The translations under genes and the position numbers were made by a program. Of a stretch of DNA of 36,883 nucleotides, positions 21,775 to 29,839 are shown one piece after another. Numbering within the stretch: the first letter of the stretch is position 1; each line of letters begins with the position of its first letter. The notes beneath the pieces are model-generated. The model ran no database searches. It worked only from the letters and a program-made list of their open reading frames with translations, and was not told the origin of the DNA. Source of the stretch: Nitrososphaerota archaeon (lineage in GTDB: Archaea; Thermoproteota; Nitrososphaeria; Nitrososphaerales; Nitrosopumilaceae); contig JAGWGB010000013.1 of assembly GCA_028867595.1 (NCBI GenBank), forward strand, positions 1 through 36,883, read 5' to 3'.

Positions 21775-22392
21775 TTGGTTACCCTTGAGATTCTCAGCAG
21801 TCTGACTAATTTCATAATTCAGACCATATCAAATTCCGGATATCTCGGAGTCTTCTTTCTCATGGTTGCAGAAAGTGCGCTAATACCAATACCAAGTGAG
21901 GTAATCATGCCGTTTTCCGGATACCTTGTATCTACAGGCAAGTTTAGCATCGTGCCAGTCATACTTGCAGGCTCTGTTGGAAATCTAGTTGGATCCCTAA
22001 TTGCATATGCCATAGGGATGTACCTTGGAAGAGGTTTTGTGTTAAGATATGGAAAGTATGTCTTGCTCAAAAAATCACATCTTGAGCTTGCCGAGTCCTA
22101 TTTCAAAAAATATGGCGACAAGTCCACTTTTATCAGCAGGTTACTGCCTGCAATAAGGACATACGTCTCGCTTCCTGCAGGCGTAGCCAAGATGAACCTG
22201 AAGAGGTTTGTCGCCTTTACATTCATAGGTTCAGTCATATGGAATACTGCACTAACATTTATCGGCCTAAAATTGGGCCAAGAGTGGGAAAGTATCAGGA
22301 AATATTCAAACTATTTTGATGTACTAGTAATAGCAATAGTGGTTATTGCCATAGTTGTGTATTTGAAGAAACGACGCGTCAGCGATTCTTAA
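21775..22392 (+). CDS. DedA family (VTT/SNARE-associated) membrane protein
   Basis: DedA proteins are polytopic inner-membrane proteins implicated in lipid flipping and membrane homeostasis. The 205-residue product has the family signatures ESALIPIPSEVIMPFSGYLV, GSLIAYAIGMYLGRG, FKKYGDKSTFISRLLPAIRT and SLPAGVAKM, with about five hydrophobic segments. The frame opens with TTG and lacks an early ATG, so a TTG start is accepted. Its 3' end overlaps the convergent PIN-like gene by 14 bases. Confidence 0.9.
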   Translation: MVTLEILSSLTNFIIQTISNSGYLGVFFLMVAESALIPIPSEVIMPFSGYLVSTGKFSIVPVILAGSVGNLVGSLIAYAIGMYLGRGFVLRYGKYVLLKKSHLELAESYFKKYGDKSTFISRLLPAIRTYVSLPAGVAKMNLKRFVAFTFIGSVIWNTALTFIGLKLGQEWESIRKYSNYFDVLVIAIVVIAIVVYLKKRRVSDS

Positions 22393-22660
22393 AGTTACCA
22401 AGTTCTTCCAAAATTATCTTGAATAAAGATTCAGTATCAAGCAAAACACATGGAATGTTGTTTTCCTTGCAGGCCTTTCCGACTTCAACATCTTCGGTTA
22501 TCATTATCATTCCATTTTCTTCAGCATATTTTATTACAGAATAATCACTTGACAGTTTCTTTCCCTCCATTATCAGTTTTTTTACGCTAAATGCGTCATA
22601 GCCGAATTCTTTTAGCCTCGTATCCATACCATCGTACATTTCATCGACTAGTACTTTCAT
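22379..22660 (-). CDS. DUF5615-type PIN-like protein
   Basis: The 93-residue protein follows the DUF5615/Mut7-C-like fold: an N-terminal acidic VLVDEMYDG, a helix LKEFGYDAFSV, the SSDYSVIKYAEENG acidic helix and the MIMITEDVEVG strand, all holding Asp/Glu residues that line the metal site of PIN-like nucleases. Members are often found as toxin-like or RNA-processing proteins, but no antitoxin gene adjoins it here. A free-standing RNase role is possible. It is convergent with the DedA gene. Confidence 0.75.
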   Translation of the reverse strand: MKVLVDEMYDGMDTRLKEFGYDAFSVKKLIMEGKKLSSDYSVIKYAEENGMIMITEDVEVGKACKENNIPCVLLDTESLFKIILEELGNFKNR

Positions 22661-22816
22661 CGTATTTTCTTCTTTCTAGATGCTTATTATTTATCTGATT
22701 TGATCTTTCTACAAATTTGATCGATGAGCATTTTTGAATTCAACAACTACATTCATAGATCTAGAACAAAATGGAGCTTTAAAGGATTGTTTTCATCTAA
22801 CTCAATTTCCCATTAA

Positions 22817-23308
22817 CTATTTTACAACAATATTAGTGTTAATTATATCTGTAAGTTGACTTGACATTAAATTCCCATTGAGAAGAAACGTCTGCACAGA
22901 ATACATTCCAGCTTTTTGTGGTATCCAGGACTCGGCTACAGTAAGGGATTGGTTCGGTGAAATGTTTACAGACATACTGCTTCGAGATTGAATCTGATTG
23001 TTTTGATCAAGCACTCGAACAACATATGTGAATCGCTTCTCTCCTGTGCCATGATTTTCAATGATTGATGAAAATCCAATTGGAGTTCCCACGTATAGAT
23101 CATTTTTTTGATGGCCCTTCATATCAACAATTGTTGGATTAGACAAGGTTATTTCACTTAGTTGACCCAAAGCATATCCAGGAATTCCCATTACTAACAT
23201 AGTCATACTAAGGATTATCACTTGTTTGCGCATAATCCGATATGATTTTTTATTATCATCAATTATTTTGATTAATCCATAACATTTTTGACAGGATTCA
23301 TTTGACAT
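22817..23308 (-). CDS. Secreted Ig-like/CARDB-type protein behind the left inverted repeat
   Basis: The frame of 163 residues has a hydrophobic segment (VIILSMTMLVMGIPGYALG) and then an extracellular beta domain (VGTPIGFSSIIENHGTGEKR, ending MYSVQTFLL), like adhesion or CARDB folds. From the ATG at 23308 it begins with a CxxC stretch, MSNESCQKCYG, resembling the start of the zinc-ribbon gene at 24469. From the Met at 23233 it would begin with a clean signal peptide. A TATA-like box at 23337-23345, at the outer edge of the left repeat, suits the 23308 start. Both starts are possible. Confidence 0.7.
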   Translation of the reverse strand: MSNESCQKCYGLIKIIDDNKKSYRIMRKQVIILSMTMLVMGIPGYALGQLSEITLSNPTIVDMKGHQKNDLYVGTPIGFSSIIENHGTGEKRFTYVVRVLDQNNQIQSRSSMSVNISPNQSLTVAESWIPQKAGMYSVQTFLLNGNLMSSQLTDIINTNIVVK

Positions 23309-23336
23309 GTCTATTTTCTAAACAATAATAATTTTA

Positions 23337-23417
23337 GTATATTAGTATTGAGAGACACTTTTCAAAATGAAATAATTTTGGATATTAAGAAACTAAAGAT
23401 CATTTAGAGAAATGTAT
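23337..23417 (+). repeat. Left copy of an 81-bp inverted repeat
   Basis: Compared with the reverse complement of 24677-24757, the inner 56 bases (23362-23417) are identical. The outer 25 bases have six mismatches and no gaps. The outer end, GTATATTA (23337-23344), reads as a TATA box on the minus strand 29-36 bases before the ATG at 23308, so the repeat appears to carry that gene's promoter and upstream region. Confidence 0.95.
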
Positions 23418-23512
23418 TATAATCATTAAATCATTTGTCCACAAAATATTTTTACTTCAATTATGCAATATTTTTGTAAATGTACATATGTCTGTGAGGG
23501 AGGTATTTGTTT

Positions 23513-24049
23513 TTGGCCAATCCTACAACCAATGAAGACAGAATACTGGAATACATACAACGAAATCCCGGATGCCATCTTCGCCGTATCAAAAATGATT
23601 TAGACATGTCAATGGGTACTACACAATATCATTTGAATTCGCTAGAAAAGGCTGGAAAAATTATCTCTGAAAGACATAGTTTGCACCGATTCTATTTCCC
23701 TGTAGGAATTTTTGAGTTAAAACAAAAAAACATAATGAAGATTCTGAATCAAGATACCTTAAGAGAGATATTGTTATTCATAATAGAAAGAAAGAATCCC
23801 ACTCAGACAGAGATCAGCGAGCGCATAAAAATAACTGCAGCGTCTGTTAACTGGCATATAAAACGACTACTTGAACTTGGCATTGTGAATGAAACCCGAG
23901 AAGGAAAGTTCAAGAGATACGAGTTTGTTGGAAGTCCTTCACATATCATAAAGATACTGAAAGAATATCATCCATCCCTGTGGAATAGTTGGAGTGATAG
24001 ATTGGCTGAGATGTTTTTGTCATTGCACAAGGACGGTAAGGAAACATGA
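23513..24049 (+). CDS. Double winged-helix transcriptional regulator
   Basis: The protein (about 178 residues) has two winged-helix domains. The first spans roughly residues 1-65 (ILEYIQRNPGCHLRRIKNDL, MGTTQYHLNSLEKAGKI). The second spans about 80-150 (TQTEISERIKITAASVNWHI, then KRLLELGIVNE). This tandem layout is common in archaeal regulators. The frame opens with TTG at 23507, but the Shine-Dalgarno-like GGGAGGT at 23498-23504 is two bases from it and eight from the in-frame TTG at 23513, which is therefore preferred. It heads a cassette with the membrane gene at 24046, overlapping by ATGA, and lies between the two 81-bp inverted repeats. Confidence 0.85.
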   Translation: MANPTTNEDRILEYIQRNPGCHLRRIKNDLDMSMGTTQYHLNSLEKAGKIISERHSLHRFYFPVGIFELKQKNIMKILNQDTLREILLFIIERKNPTQTEISERIKITAASVNWHIKRLLELGIVNETREGKFKRYEFVGSPSHIIKILKEYHPSLWNSWSDRLAEMFLSLHKDGKET

Positions 24050-24348
24050 ATGTGCCACCATTTTCCTTTGGGCCTGGATTCTCAGAGATATTTATTGGTA
24101 CACAAATAACTATTATAGTAATTTCCGTTATCTTGATGACTTTATCTATTTCCATCTACAGAAATAAAAATTTGAAAAGAATCGCATTTGCTATAGCAAT
24201 ATTTGCTTTATTTGCTTTTCAACACATTATCAATTTTGTTGATGCTAAAGTGGGCGATATTATGCCTGATGACATGAGATATGCGGTATTTTCATCAATA
24301 ACATTGGTTATAATTGGATTATTCTTTTTAGCAATAGTCAAGAAATAA
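24046..24348 (+). CDS. Small polytopic membrane protein coupled to the regulator
   Basis: The 100-residue protein has three hydrophobic segments: FIGTQITIIVISVILMTLSI, IAFAIAIFALFAFQHIINFV and VFSSITLVIIGLFFLAIV. A short basic loop (YRNKNLKR) suggests an orientation. The ATG overlaps the regulator stop as ATGA, so the pair are probably translated together. A one-component regulator paired with a small membrane protein could sense the membrane or envelope, but that is inference. No family is recognised. Confidence 0.75.
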   Translation: MNVPPFSFGPGFSEIFIGTQITIIVISVILMTLSISIYRNKNLKRIAFAIAIFALFAFQHIINFVDAKVGDIMPDDMRYAVFSSITLVIIGLFFLAIVKK

Positions 24349-24353
24349 CTTGT

Positions 24354-24412
24354 ACAGTTTTCTAACTGTTTGTCTTATAATAAAAAAAGCAATATTGTCA
24401 ACTTATGCTTTT
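24354..24412 (+). terminator. Possible terminator region after the regulator operon
   Basis: A hairpin ACAGT-TTTCTA-ACTGT (24354-24369) follows the stop codon by five bases. Seven-base complements AAAAGCA (24385-24391) and TGCTTTT (24406-24412) form a second. Position and T/A-rich flanks suggest transcription ends here, before the separate promoter of the zinc-ribbon gene. Confidence 0.35.
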
Positions 24413-24468
24413 AGTTAGATGAACGTATCTGAAATGTAATATAGCATAACTCGCATTGTTAACAAGAC

Positions 24469-24660
24469 ATGCCAGATGAATCATGTAGAAAGTGTGGTGG
24501 AACACTGACAAGATTTTCCCTGTGTGCAGAGTGCATGGGACCAATGCAACAAATCTGCATGAAATGTGGATTGAAGACTGTGGAAAAGCTACACCATGAT
24601 TGTTTCTATTCCATAGAACCGATTCAGTTAACATCCCCACATCTCATAATATTGGAATAA
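24469..24660 (+). CDS. Small Cys-rich zinc-ribbon protein, 63 aa
   Basis: The protein has three CxxC knuckles, C6/C9 (CRKC), C19/C22 (CAEC) and C30/C33 (CMKC), plus His42, His43 and Cys45 (KLHHDCF). Together these could hold two zinc ions. Such micro-proteins may bind nucleic acid or protein. A TATA-like AATATAGC at about 24438-24445 lies near 25 bases before the ATG. It is the last gene inside the inverted-repeat cassette, ending 16 bases before the right repeat. Its first residues (PDESCRKC) resemble those of the secreted-protein frame at 23308. Confidence 0.75.
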   Translation: MPDESCRKCGGTLTRFSLCAECMGPMQQICMKCGLKTVEKLHHDCFYSIEPIQLTSPHLIILE

Positions 24661-24676
24661 CATACACATTTTCTTG

Positions 24677-24757
24677 ATACATTTCTCTAAATGATCTTTA
24701 GTTTCTTAATATCCAAAATTATTTCATTTTGAGAATTGTCCCTCAAATATAATATAC
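24677..24757 (-). repeat. Right copy of the 81-bp inverted repeat
   Basis: The 56 bases 24677-24732 are an exact reverse complement of 23362-23417, and similarity continues to 24757. The outer end (24745-24757, AAATATAATATAC) reads as a plus-strand TATA box about 22-34 bases before the ATG at 24779, so this copy appears to carry the promoter for the small ORF and the HtrA gene. Confidence 0.95.
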
Positions 24758-24778
24758 AAAGAATTTACATTGGATGCC

Positions 24779-24886
24779 ATGACGGCAGATTTGAAATATT
24801 ATTTTGAACAAAGCCAGCCTTTTCCTATAGATCCCCTGCAATTTGAAACAATTTCTGCCGTCAAATTTTTTTTAATTAAGAAATGA
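24779..24886 (+). CDS. Small upstream ORF (35 aa) coupled to the HtrA gene
   Basis: An ATG at 24779 opens a 35-codon frame (MTADLKYYFEQSQPFPIDPL onwards) whose TGA overlaps the HtrA start codon as ATGA. It sits at leaderless distance from the TATA at the edge of the right repeat. Within it, GACGGCAGA (24781-24789) and TCTGCCGTC (24854-24862) are perfect 9-base complements, so the transcript could fold across it. It may be a leader peptide controlling htrA, a real small protein, or a relic. No family is recognised. Confidence 0.45.
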   Translation: MTADLKYYFEQSQPFPIDPLQFETISAVKFFLIKK

Positions 24887-26127
24887 TCCACAAAGAATAC
24901 GTCATTAGCATTATGAGGAAACTACGTACTGTACTCCTTGCTGCAGTGATCCTTGTAGTGCTTGGTAGTACAGGTGTCATACATGTAAACCAGTCCTCTG
25001 CTTCACATGAATTCACAGACAAAATATCGTCTCCTGACTATGTTAGTTTGTTCAAGATGGTGCAAAATTCCGTAGTCAAAATAACAAGTACAGTATCTGA
25101 TCCATCTGAGATCACTATCATAAATGGCATGCCATCCAATGGAGAAACCACCATGCTTGGTTCTGGATTTATGTATGATACTACTGGCCACATTGTCACA
25201 AACGCTCATGTGGTTGGCCAGAATAACGTTGTTTATGTAACTCTCACCGATGGTGATACCTATACTGCAAAAGTAGTTGGAACAGACCCATACAATGATT
25301 TGGCCGTAATACAGATGACTGGCAACTTTACTGGGGAAAGCATAGTTCCGTTGCAGCTTGGTAATTCTTCCCAGCTTGAGGTAGGGCAGTATGTGGCAGC
25401 AATCGGAAATCCATTTGGGCTTGAAGATACAATGACCAACGGCATCGTATCACAGCTTGGTAGATCACTTAACGATGAGGAGACAGGCAGCTTTTCTATT
25501 CCAGATGTTATTCAAACTAGTGCGGCAATAAACCCCGGAAATTCGGGCGGGCCACTTCTTAACATGGATGGACAGGTGATTGGAATGAACACTGCGATAA
25601 AGACCGATACGGGTAACTTTGCAGGAATCGGATATGCAATTCCGTCAAATCAAATTGCAAGAATAGTGCCAATTCTGATAAAAGATGGTGCATACCATCA
25701 TACCTGGCTTGGTATCGAAGGAAGGAATCTAACACCAGACATAGCCCTTGCAAACGGGCTTGAGAGAAACTCCAAGGGCGTAGTAATAGAAAAAGTATCA
25801 ACCAATAGCTCTGCATCAAAAGCTGGTCTTGAAGCAGCAACAGATGACCAGAACGGAATACCCCATGGCGGAGACATAATAGTATCAGTTGATGGGCATC
25901 CTGTTAAATCAGTCTATGACATCACAGCATACCAAGACAACTACAAATCTGTTGGAGACACCATGAATCTTGGAATAGATAGGGCAGGAAAGATAATCAA
26001 TGTCATTGTTACGCTGCAGGCCAGACCACCACCACTACCTCCTACACCTCCAACACCTACAGCATATCCCAGCTTTCCGCAAGTTCCAGGCTTCCCACAA
26101 ATACCAGGTTTTCCACAAGTTCCATGA
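24883..26127 (+). CDS. HtrA/DegP-like serine protease with PDZ domain
   Basis: This 414-residue exported protease degrades or guards misfolded envelope proteins. It has an N-terminal signal sequence (LLAAVILVVLGSTGVIHV). A trypsin-like domain carries the triad His109 (TNAHVVG), Asp139 (YNDLAVI) and Ser221 (GNSGGPLL). One PDZ domain spans about residues 280-380, with HGGDIIVSVDGHPVKSVYDI. The Pro-rich tail has short PGFPQ repeats. A start at Met11 (24913) is also possible and gives a tighter signal peptide. The promoter seems to lie in the right 81-bp repeat, with a 35-codon ORF in between. Confidence 0.92.
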   Translation: MIHKEYVISIMRKLRTVLLAAVILVVLGSTGVIHVNQSSASHEFTDKISSPDYVSLFKMVQNSVVKITSTVSDPSEITIINGMPSNGETTMLGSGFMYDTTGHIVTNAHVVGQNNVVYVTLTDGDTYTAKVVGTDPYNDLAVIQMTGNFTGESIVPLQLGNSSQLEVGQYVAAIGNPFGLEDTMTNGIVSQLGRSLNDEETGSFSIPDVIQTSAAINPGNSGGPLLNMDGQVIGMNTAIKTDTGNFAGIGYAIPSNQIARIVPILIKDGAYHHTWLGIEGRNLTPDIALANGLERNSKGVVIEKVSTNSSASKAGLEAATDDQNGIPHGGDIIVSVDGHPVKSVYDITAYQDNYKSVGDTMNLGIDRAGKIINVIVTLQARPPPLPPTPPTPTAYPSFPQVPGFPQIPGFPQVP

Positions 26128-27637: not shown

Positions 27638-29839
27638 ATGAAAGAATTTGGAACCTTAGAATATGTCTTGGACACTTACTCGAAAAACTGGACCTGGAAG
27701 CTTACTGGCTCAAGAGCAGTAAGCATGGTTGCCAGAGTCATTCCTCAAGCTTGGTATGGAGACGGTCCTGAAGAAGCAATAGTACCGGATACAGAACATA
27801 ACGTTCAGAAAATCAAATGGATAATGGAGACATATCCGCTTGAGATTAAATCACGAAACATTTGGCAAAGAAAGACAAAACACATGGTAATTCCAAAAAG
27901 AAAATGGACTAGAATAGAAAAACTTCGCAAAGCAAACGCAGGAGATCAGTTCAGGGGCAAGCTGCTTGATTTCCAGAGAGAAGGCTTGGACTTTTTGCTA
28001 AAATCTTCTGGCAATGCACTTTTAGCTGACGAAATGGGATTGGGTAAATGTGTAGTTGGCAATACAATTATTCATACAGTTGATGGTCCAATCACAATCG
28101 AAACGATATGGAATAATGCATCTGTGACCGAATCTTATCATGATGAAGAATGGGCTCATCTCACAACACCCATCACAATCCAAACATTCGATGGAGAAAA
28201 AATCATCAGCAAAAAAATAAACAAAGTTTTCAGGCAAAAAATAAACGAACCCATGATAGAGATTAATCTATCTAATACATCGCTAAAATGTACGAGGAGA
28301 CATAGGCTCCTCACCTTACATGGATGGAAAACAGCATTTGAATTGATTTCAAGTGATAAAATTGCTTTATCTACAGAAACATTTGATTGCAGTCATTCAA
28401 ATCAAATTCTAGTCTCTAAATCCATCTATTGGTGTCCCATAGAATCTATGCACTCAATAGAATTTTCTGGTTACGTGTATGATCTTTCAGTTCCTGAAAC
28501 CCACAACTATATCGCAAATGGAATCATAACGCACAACACTGTTCAGACCTTATCATATTTAGCTACAGAGAAACAAACATTTCCAGCCTTGATAGTGGCA
28601 CCACTTGTAACATTAAGTAATTGGCAGAGAGAGATTCAAAAGTTTCTTAAAAAAAGAAGCAGAAACGGAAGAGTTGTTGAAACTCAATATCCTTCTTCTG
28701 TGCTTATTCGCACTGGCAAATCTCAAGAGATTGCCAAACATGACATTTACATCATAAATTATGATCTTCTATACAAAAGACTTGGCGACCTTTCAAAGTT
28801 GAACATACGCACACTTGTATGTGATGAAGTTCAACATCTTCGTTCAAAATCAACCAAGAAATATTCTGCAGTAAAGAAACTTTCCGGATTAGAATCAGTA
28901 AAGTACAGAATAGGGCTTTCTGGAACACCAATTTACAATAGAGGCTCTGAGATATGGCCAATAGTTGACATACTAAGACCAGGACTTCTTGGAAGCTTTG
29001 AGGAGTTTTGTGAGTATTTCTGTTATGTAAATGAGAAAGGAAAAGCAATAGTGCTTGAAAGCAAACGTGCAAGTTTGGGTGAAGAGTTACGAAAACATGT
29101 CATGCTGAGACGCAAAAAATCTGACGTCCTAAAGGAATTAAAAGAAAAGGTGAGATACAAAGAATTTATCGATTCAGATATCAATTACTACTATGCCGAG
29201 CTTGACAAGATTTGGAAACGACTAGAAGAGGAGCAAAAAACTGCAACCTCTGCATTTGATAAATTTTCTTCATACAAGAGGGCAATCCAGAGTGAGAGAC
29301 AAGCAGCTGGCGCTGCAAAATTGCCCCATGTCATAGAGTTTGTCAAGAACATCATGGAGATAGAAGAAAGTGTGGTGGTGTTCTGCCATCACAAGGCAAT
29401 ACATGCGTTGTTGCACAAGAGCCTTCATGAATATTCGCCTTCGTCCATCATAGGTGGGCAGTCAGACAAGGAAAGACAGGACAACATAGACAAATTCCAA
29501 AATGGCGAAACAAAGCTAATGATTGCCGGACTTCGAGCTGGAAATGTGGGAATAAACCTAAGCAAGGCAAGATACGTCATATTTGCAGAGCTTGATTGGA
29601 GTCCTGCAATACACAGACAGGCAGAAGACAGACTGCACAGAATAGGGCAAAAAAATACTGTATTTGCATATTATTTGATAGGCAATGCAACGCTTGATGA
29701 TCATGTGGCAAACGTTCTCGTTGACAAGAGTTATGAGATTGATGCAATCATGGACGAAAAAGAAGAAGCGTTTGAAAACAAGGACAAGGCAGAGTTAATC
29801 TTGGCCCAAATTCATGACAGGCTTACTGCAAAACACTAG
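27638..29839 (+). CDS. SNF2-family helicase/translocase containing a mini-intein
   Basis: The 733-residue frame encodes a SNF2/Rad54-like DNA translocase of 570 residues once the intein is removed. An N-terminal region of about 115 residues precedes the ATPase. Motif I reads DEMGLGK, is broken by the intein after Lys137, and resumes as TVQTL. Later motifs are IVAPLVTLSNW (Ia), LVCDEVQHL (II), GLSGTPI (III), a C-terminal lobe with VVVFCHHKAI, MIAGLRAGNVGINL (V) and QAEDRLHRIGQKN (VI). Splicing must occur to rebuild the P-loop, so the unspliced protein should be inactive. A TATA-like box at about 27596-27605 precedes it. Confidence 0.93.
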   Translation: MKEFGTLEYVLDTYSKNWTWKLTGSRAVSMVARVIPQAWYGDGPEEAIVPDTEHNVQKIKWIMETYPLEIKSRNIWQRKTKHMVIPKRKWTRIEKLRKANAGDQFRGKLLDFQREGLDFLLKSSGNALLADEMGLGKCVVGNTIIHTVDGPITIETIWNNASVTESYHDEEWAHLTTPITIQTFDGEKIISKKINKVFRQKINEPMIEINLSNTSLKCTRRHRLLTLHGWKTAFELISSDKIALSTETFDCSHSNQILVSKSIYWCPIESMHSIEFSGYVYDLSVPETHNYIANGIITHNTVQTLSYLATEKQTFPALIVAPLVTLSNWQREIQKFLKKRSRNGRVVETQYPSSVLIRTGKSQEIAKHDIYIINYDLLYKRLGDLSKLNIRTLVCDEVQHLRSKSTKKYSAVKKLSGLESVKYRIGLSGTPIYNRGSEIWPIVDILRPGLLGSFEEFCEYFCYVNEKGKAIVLESKRASLGEELRKHVMLRRKKSDVLKELKEKVRYKEFIDSDINYYYAELDKIWKRLEEEQKTATSAFDKFSSYKRAIQSERQAAGAAKLPHVIEFVKNIMEIEESVVVFCHHKAIHALLHKSLHEYSPSSIIGGQSDKERQDNIDKFQNGETKLMIAGLRAGNVGINLSKARYVIFAELDWSPAIHRQAEDRLHRIGQKNTVFAYYLIGNATLDDHVANVLVDKSYEIDAIMDEKEEAFENKDKAELILAQIHDRLTAKH
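28049..28537 (+). mobile_element. Mini-intein in the SNF2 P-loop (163 aa)
   Basis: Residues 138-300 of the SNF2 frame form an intein. Block A begins with Cys1 (CVVGNTIIHTVDGPITIETI). Block B is SLKCTRRHRLLTLHGW with the T-x-x-H His. Block F is YVYDLSVPETHNYIANG, and block G is IITHN, with penultimate His and terminal Asn. The +1 extein residue is Thr. Joining GLGK to TVQTL restores a perfect Walker A motif. The gap between blocks B and F is too short for a homing endonuclease and has no LAGLIDADG motif, so this is a mini-intein that can no longer home by itself. Confidence 0.95.

Follow-up and report, generated by a model that had tools for sequence, protein, structure and literature searches.

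Two copies of an 81-bp sequence stand in opposite orientation, about 1.26 kb apart, in a 36,883-nucleotide stretch of DNA from a Nitrososphaerota archaeon (contig JAGWGB010000013.1, assembly GCA_028867595.1; hereafter the window), and the gene of a putative transcriptional regulator lies between them. Are these copies the ends of a segment that flips, a mobile element that landed twice, or control regions of the genes around them? Alignment of the two arms bears out the repeat as a first-pass annotation had described it: 75 of 81 bp match, with six mismatches, and the inner 56 bp are identical. A repeat search of the window places the arms at 23334-23417 and 24677-24760 (84 nt, 92% complementary, 1259 nt between them), and their 55-nt core, which has two copies in the window, occurred in none of 100 shuffles. 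We consider it probable that the inverted repeat is a pair of regulated promoters that face outward from their own regulator's gene and would serve a small local group of genes, mostly of the envelope.

The segment between the arms had been read as a cassette of a double winged-helix regulator, a coupled membrane protein and a zinc-ribbon protein, and Pfam searches and open reading frames agree (Table 1). The regulator contains the domains HTH_HVO_0163_N (64.1 bits, with a cut-off of 31) and HTH_24, and its structural model shows a tandem winged-helix fold (pLDDT 86); domains above the curated cut-offs together with this fold place it among the archaeal winged-helix regulators. Its Foldseek neighbours are winged-helix proteins of the ScpB, ArsR and MarR types, with low TM-scores over the full length. 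In most loci, the gene of the membrane protein is coupled or adjacent to that of the regulator, which suggests a sensing role for the membrane protein; a Pfam family search of the membrane protein returned no match backing a sensor role, and none to sigma/anti-sigma or histidine kinase/response regulator families. The zinc-ribbon mRNA is probably leaderless. To the right, Trypsin_2 (116 bits) and PDZ_2 (38 bits), both above cut-off, assign the protease to the HtrA/Deg family. Two observations concern the surroundings of the locus: a small protein encoded beside it (22379-22660) has a sub-threshold match to DUF5615/Mut7-C (PIN-like), and a probable intein (approximately 28046-28490; GKCVVGNTIIH...GIITHNT) interrupts the P-loop of an SNF2-type helicase reading frame (27638-29839).

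Table 1. Features of the locus, with positions and strands in the window
Feature	Position	Strand	Remarks
Predicted secreted protein (left target)	22817-23308	-	163 aa; sub-threshold CARDB match
Left promoter module, O1-49-O2-TATA	23337-23418	-	Points outward to the secreted-protein gene; from repeat search, alignment of arms and orthologues, and matrix
TATA box, left module	23338-23344	-	Consensus position
O2 of left module, CATTTTGAAAAGTGTCTC	23352-23369	-	
O1 of left module, AATACATTTCTCTAAATG	23401-23418	-	Inverted operator; 13.5 bits
Tandem winged-helix regulator	23513-24049	+	Start also possible at 23507
Membrane protein	24046-24348	+	About 100 aa; about three transmembrane segments by eye; overlaps the regulator by ATGA
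Third module, degenerate	24351-24443	+	O1 24351-24368, 61 bp, O2 24412-24429, TATA 24437-24443; 5' of the zinc-ribbon gene
Zinc-ribbon-like protein	24469-24660	+	63 aa; weak Pfam matches only
Right promoter module, O1-49-O2-TATA	24676-24757	+	Points outward to the hairpin leader and htrA
O1 of right module, GATACATTTCTCTAAATG	24676-24693	+	20.7 bits
Identical 56 bp, right-arm copy	24678-24733	+	Differs from the right arms of orthologues; apparently copied from the left arm by conversion
O2 of right module, CATTTTGAGAATTGTCCC	24725-24742	+	
TATA box, right module	24750-24756	+	Consensus position
Class A hairpin RNA or leader	24780-24873	+	Stem 24780-24789 with 24854-24863, then U8
HtrA-type serine protease with PDZ domain	24883-26127	+	

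Both arms share one layout, in which an inverted operator (O1) is followed by 49 bp, by the same operator (O2) and then by a TATA box; the ends of the arms coincide with O1 and the TATA box. The O2 sequence consists of a palindromic core, CAYTT-N4-AARTG, extended by TGTNCC, and it adjoins the BRE/TATA. The orthologous locus was found in three genomes of the same genus (G017, G018 and G020), and O1, O2 and TATA are kept there in both arms. In the alignment of the four loci, the conserved parts of each arm are the outer 36 bp or so, made up of an operator-like sequence with the TATA box directly after it, and a shorter inner element. Comparative evidence supports the annotation's proposal that the arms are promoters for the flanking genes. 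In G017 the regulator is split by a frameshift (L070 4923-5457), and the frame of the downstream htrA also looks broken, from either sequencing errors or decay.

These modules also bear on the idea that the arms are a dispersed repeat or miniature mobile element inserted twice. Two near-identical copies are what such an element would leave, but a search of the whole source genome (1.68 Mb, a fragmented assembly of 170 contigs, 96.5% complete) returned as its next best match a 23-bp fragment (E 0.01), and the only two copies are those at this locus, in place of the multiple dispersed copies of an insertion sequence or MITE. Moreover, relatives hold the same modules at orthologous positions, and the arm ends fall on an operator and a TATA box. 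A mobile origin is hardly credible on this evidence.

The description of the arms as one duplicated promoter region was too modest, in that the paired module is old and widespread and that the window contains three modules, not two. The third, overlooked in the first-pass annotation, lies upstream of the zinc-ribbon gene, is weaker than both arms and has apparently been lost in G018. The first codons of the left gene, read by eye, resemble those of the zinc-ribbon gene (MPDESC in G018), which suggests that one of these two modules was derived from the other together with its leader.

The distribution of the operator ties it to the regulator. When 201 related genomes were scanned with the operator-TATA pattern TNGANNANTGTNYCTCAANTNTAATATNC, allowing two mismatches, 51 matches were obtained in 29 genomes, compared with 2 for the reversed pattern used as a control. 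Forty-five of the 51 have a homologue of the regulator at 23513 no more than a few kb away, five do not, and one is near a contig end; the conserved operator thus co-localises with the factor gene across genomes, as in a local transcription-factor regulon. Presence by genome (n = 101) gave 21 genomes with both operator and regulator, 3 with the operator only, 7 with the regulator only and 70 with neither (Fisher p 7e-13, for a regulator cut-off of E below 1e-30 and with related genomes treated as independent). By this co-occurrence and co-localisation, the gene between the arms is very probably the regulator of the modules, as had been proposed. In two loci (L085 7085, L086 7196), a diverged operator, TTAGATRAATGTACCACAAATTATAATT, followed by another hairpin lies about 2 kb from regulator homologues in family f8, which belongs to the same taxonomic order.

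The paired arrangement was examined with a weight matrix trained on O2 alone and run over the DNA upstream of 62 O2 sites, many of which belong to related loci and are therefore not independent. An inverted O1 scoring at least 10 bits was found upstream of 26 of them (about 0.16 expected from shuffles), and no O1 in direct orientation was found upstream of any of the 62. All 31 matches of at least 6 bits fall at spacings of 49-52 or 59-61 bp, and two further pairs, with spacings of about 70-73 bp, were found at promoters of S-layer paralogues. These steps of about 10.5 bp point to proteins bound at O1 and O2 on the same face of the helix. Half of the O2 sites, including those of distal targets in other loci, are without an O1.

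Could the conserved sequence instead mark a class of promoters for a particular TFB/TBP or another global factor, with the neighbouring regulator being incidental? O2 abuts the BRE/TATA at fixed spacing, much like a basal element. However, the sites are confined to the neighbourhood of the regulator family rather than spread genome-wide, and a basal element would not need an inverted operator again 50 or 60 bp upstream, which makes this explanation unlikely.

In 14 genomes (G000, G003, G004, G006, G007, G017, G018, G020, G023, G026, G029, G041, G102 and G130), an outward module stands on either side of the regulator and membrane-protein pair, and this comparison of the locus among relatives also bears on inversion. 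It had been suggested that recombination between the copies could flip the cassette, and the geometry, with long near-identical inverted repeats 1.26 kb apart, would suit an invertible segment with the repeats as its recombination sites. Yet the regulator reads away from one module and toward the other, in the same sense, in all 14 genomes; no relative among them has the second orientation, and flipping is therefore not supported. The recombination-length repeat is not conserved either: the 56-bp identity is specific to this genome, and none of the three orthologous loci has it; what they keep is mainly the operators and the TATA boxes. In addition, the cassette is without a recombinase gene, and, with arms that read outward, inversion would give both flanking genes near-identical promoters again. 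We therefore regard an invertible segment as very unlikely.

If the cassette does not flip, where does the 56-bp identity come from? Compared with the left arms of G018, G017 and G020, the left inner arm of the window has identities of 86, 66 and 78%, respectively, and the right inner arm has only 68, 63 and 58% with their right arms; this right inner arm is 84% identical to the left arm of G018. Long identity between the inner arms is absent from all three orthologous loci. Since the right inner arm is closer to the left arm of G018 than to the orthologous right arms, the left spacer appears to have replaced the right one in this lineage, and the identity most simply looks like a recent left-to-right gene conversion over an old architecture. 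An assembly fault is an unlikely source, because the flanks of the arms differ. Recent duplication, gene conversion and strong constraint had all been offered as causes; the operators and TATA boxes are constrained, conversion would account for the spacer, and recent duplication is not upheld.

From these elements, we infer a mechanism in which the tandem winged-helix regulator would bind O2 beside the BRE/TATA, and O1 on the same helix face, and would control the secreted protein on the left, the zinc-ribbon protein, and the hairpin leader with the HtrA protease on the right. The regulator would probably be gated by its coupled membrane protein, and the signal may be envelope stress. Targets in other loci include acidic secreted proteins, DUF347 membrane proteins, a small winged-helix protein and S-layer paralogues. 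Many of the targets would thus be envelope-related (HtrA, secreted and membrane proteins), several of the small ones by predicted signal or transmembrane segments alone; a winged-helix protein and the zinc-ribbon protein are targets outside the envelope.

The sign of this regulation is a finer question, on which we lean slightly toward activation. Archaeal activators usually bind just upstream of the BRE/TATA, and the position of the operators there fits an activator. Winged-helix proteins of the ArsR and MarR folds, among which the structural neighbours of the regulator are found, are mostly repressors, and paired operators could form a repression loop. A repressor that keeps the same modules shut until the membrane protein relays an envelope signal would be a form of the regulon rather than an exclusive rival to it; with operators just upstream of the BRE/TATA and not over the TATA box or start, it is possible but the less probable form.

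For either sign, the transcript of the right module should begin at a hairpin, here called class A, with a U-tract ten bases before htrA. This hairpin is common to seven loci under the same operator. RNAalifold recovered its helix unaided, and 4 of the 10 pairs show compensatory change, with a covariation of 0.276 compared with 0.147 in shuffles and reached in 0 of 500 shuffles, for seven sequences only; these compensatory changes beyond shuffles mark a structured RNA. Folding z-scores are modest and mostly weak, and a search of Rfam 15 over window positions 22700-25100 gave no credible match. One-sided changes, in class A as in the class B hairpin described below, mostly give G-U pairs on the strand transcribed from the operator, as would be expected of an RNA and not of symmetry in the DNA.

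A small reading frame of 35 aa (24781-24888), which the first-pass annotation had noted without the RNA, overlaps the class A hairpin, and its stop overlaps the htrA start. Three of the four orthologues also have a frame that stays open between the hairpin and the start of htrA, and in the fourth it stops a few bases short. Its codon changes are mostly non-synonymous, and the 3' arm of the stem is kept in different frames (in an alignment by eye); constraint at the RNA level is a better reading of these changes than a conserved peptide. The frame may nonetheless be a coupled or attenuating leader peptide, and the class A element itself may be a small RNA, an attenuating leader or a stabilising 5' hairpin. 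Pairing of the window's class A RNA with S-layer mRNA starts, taken from relatives because this genome's assembly yielded no main S-layer gene, was no better than in shuffles. A high-scoring duplex between the class A RNA of G020 and the S-layer mRNA of G018 was set aside, as it joins two genomes and has long bulges. Compared with its own genome, the window's hairpin RNA has two antisense matches, of 13 and 15 nt, in the 5' part of one predicted secreted-protein gene (G000:C115, near 69270 and 69342; L207/L212), which may be due to chance or to an artefact of local search in AT-rich sequence.

In sister loci, the operator is followed by a different RNA. This class B hairpin was found downstream of the operator in eight loci of seven genomes, all beside regulator homologues, with a weak operator match at some (class B hairpins are recorded at L073 4936-4988, L075, L079, L142, L143 and L151-L158); none was found in the window's genome. 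Its 15-nt loop, GUUGUACAUAGUUAU, is invariant in a five-sequence alignment, occurs in six of the seven strong matches (that of G024 being one base short) and matches without exception the reverse complement of AUAACU-AUG-UAC-AAC, where translation of the main S-layer gene begins. This is the extended complementarity to a target mRNA start that an antisense RNA would have, and the five class B/S-layer duplexes tested within the same genome were beaten by only 0-2 of 200 shuffles. PDB 8c8k is a homologue of the main S-layer protein in the sister genomes (E 1.6e-85, 502 residues aligned).

Beside the regulator in five class B loci lies an S-layer paralogue that starts AAUAAC-AUG, followed by AGC, AAC, AGU, AAU or GAA. 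The antisense target site is absent from these regulator-side paralogues (L221-L225) and kept by the main S-layer genes (L226-L231), and class B duplexes with three of the paralogues are weaker. O1-O2 pairs are clear at two of the five paralogue promoters and weak at the other three, and none was found at the promoters of the main S-layer genes. The complementarity of the loop, the escape of the paralogues from it and the presence of paired operators at paralogue but not at main S-layer promoters support a model in which the regulator would induce two products at once, an alternative S-layer protein and an RNA antisense to the main one.

Taken together, the two kinds of locus may belong to one regulon family of Nitrosotalea-type ammonia-oxidising archaea that remodels the envelope through a membrane-coupled tandem winged-helix regulator and helically phased paired operators. 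One branch, that of the window, would act on HtrA and secreted proteins by way of a hairpin leader; the other would swap the S-layer, with the alternative protein switched on and an antisense small RNA that silences the main mRNA and spares the alternative one. We hold the chances of this wider proposal to be evenly balanced. The family appears undescribed in the literature searched, where we found no S-layer switch of this kind, nothing direct on archaeal envelope stress, S-layer antisense RNA or the regulator motifs, and no paper on the sensing or repair of extracytoplasmic damage in ammonia-oxidising archaea. To our knowledge, it is largely an open question how archaea detect and mend damage beyond the cytoplasmic membrane, and this locus supplies a concrete regulator, operator and target set that can be tested directly. 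What the sister loci contribute is a candidate archaeal antisense RNA whose predicted target, the main S-layer protein, is exact at the sequence level, and a paralogue that escapes it. If the proposal is true, archaea would have an equivalent of the bacterial envelope-stress small RNAs and a way of exchanging the S-layer, which forms the outer barrier of these organisms.

In bacteria, envelope stress responses are governed by the sigmaE and CpxAR systems, and MicA and RybB are sigmaE-dependent small RNAs. The likeness lies in an HtrA/DegP-type protease and secreted proteins under one envelope-linked regulator and, in the sister loci, in an RNA predicted to be antisense to the message of an abundant surface protein. 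However, the bacterial systems rely on sigma/anti-sigma or two-component pairs, are global and concern porins, whereas the system proposed here, known from its sequence, would combine archaeal TATA promoters, a winged-helix regulator with a small membrane partner, a local regulon and the S-layer; no homologous sigma/anti-sigma or histidine kinase/response regulator pair was found. Among archaeal proteins, the regulator resembles those of the HVO_0163 type and of the ArsR/MarR folds in its HTH_HVO_0163_N and HTH_24 domains and its predicted tandem winged-helix fold, and differs in its translational coupling to a 100-aa membrane protein and in the paired inverted operators, in helical register, that flank its gene. 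In Haloferax volcanii, a TrmB-family regulator of oxidative stress, which is thiol-based and has a single winged helix, likewise ties an archaeal winged-helix regulator to a stress response; its abstract mentions neither a membrane partner nor paired flanking operators (PMC9426492). Finally, the S-layer of ammonia-oxidising archaea is represented by the "Cell surface protein" of PDB 8c8k, to which the predicted antisense target of the sister loci is homologous; what sets the sister loci apart is that two S-layer paralogues differ at the target site.
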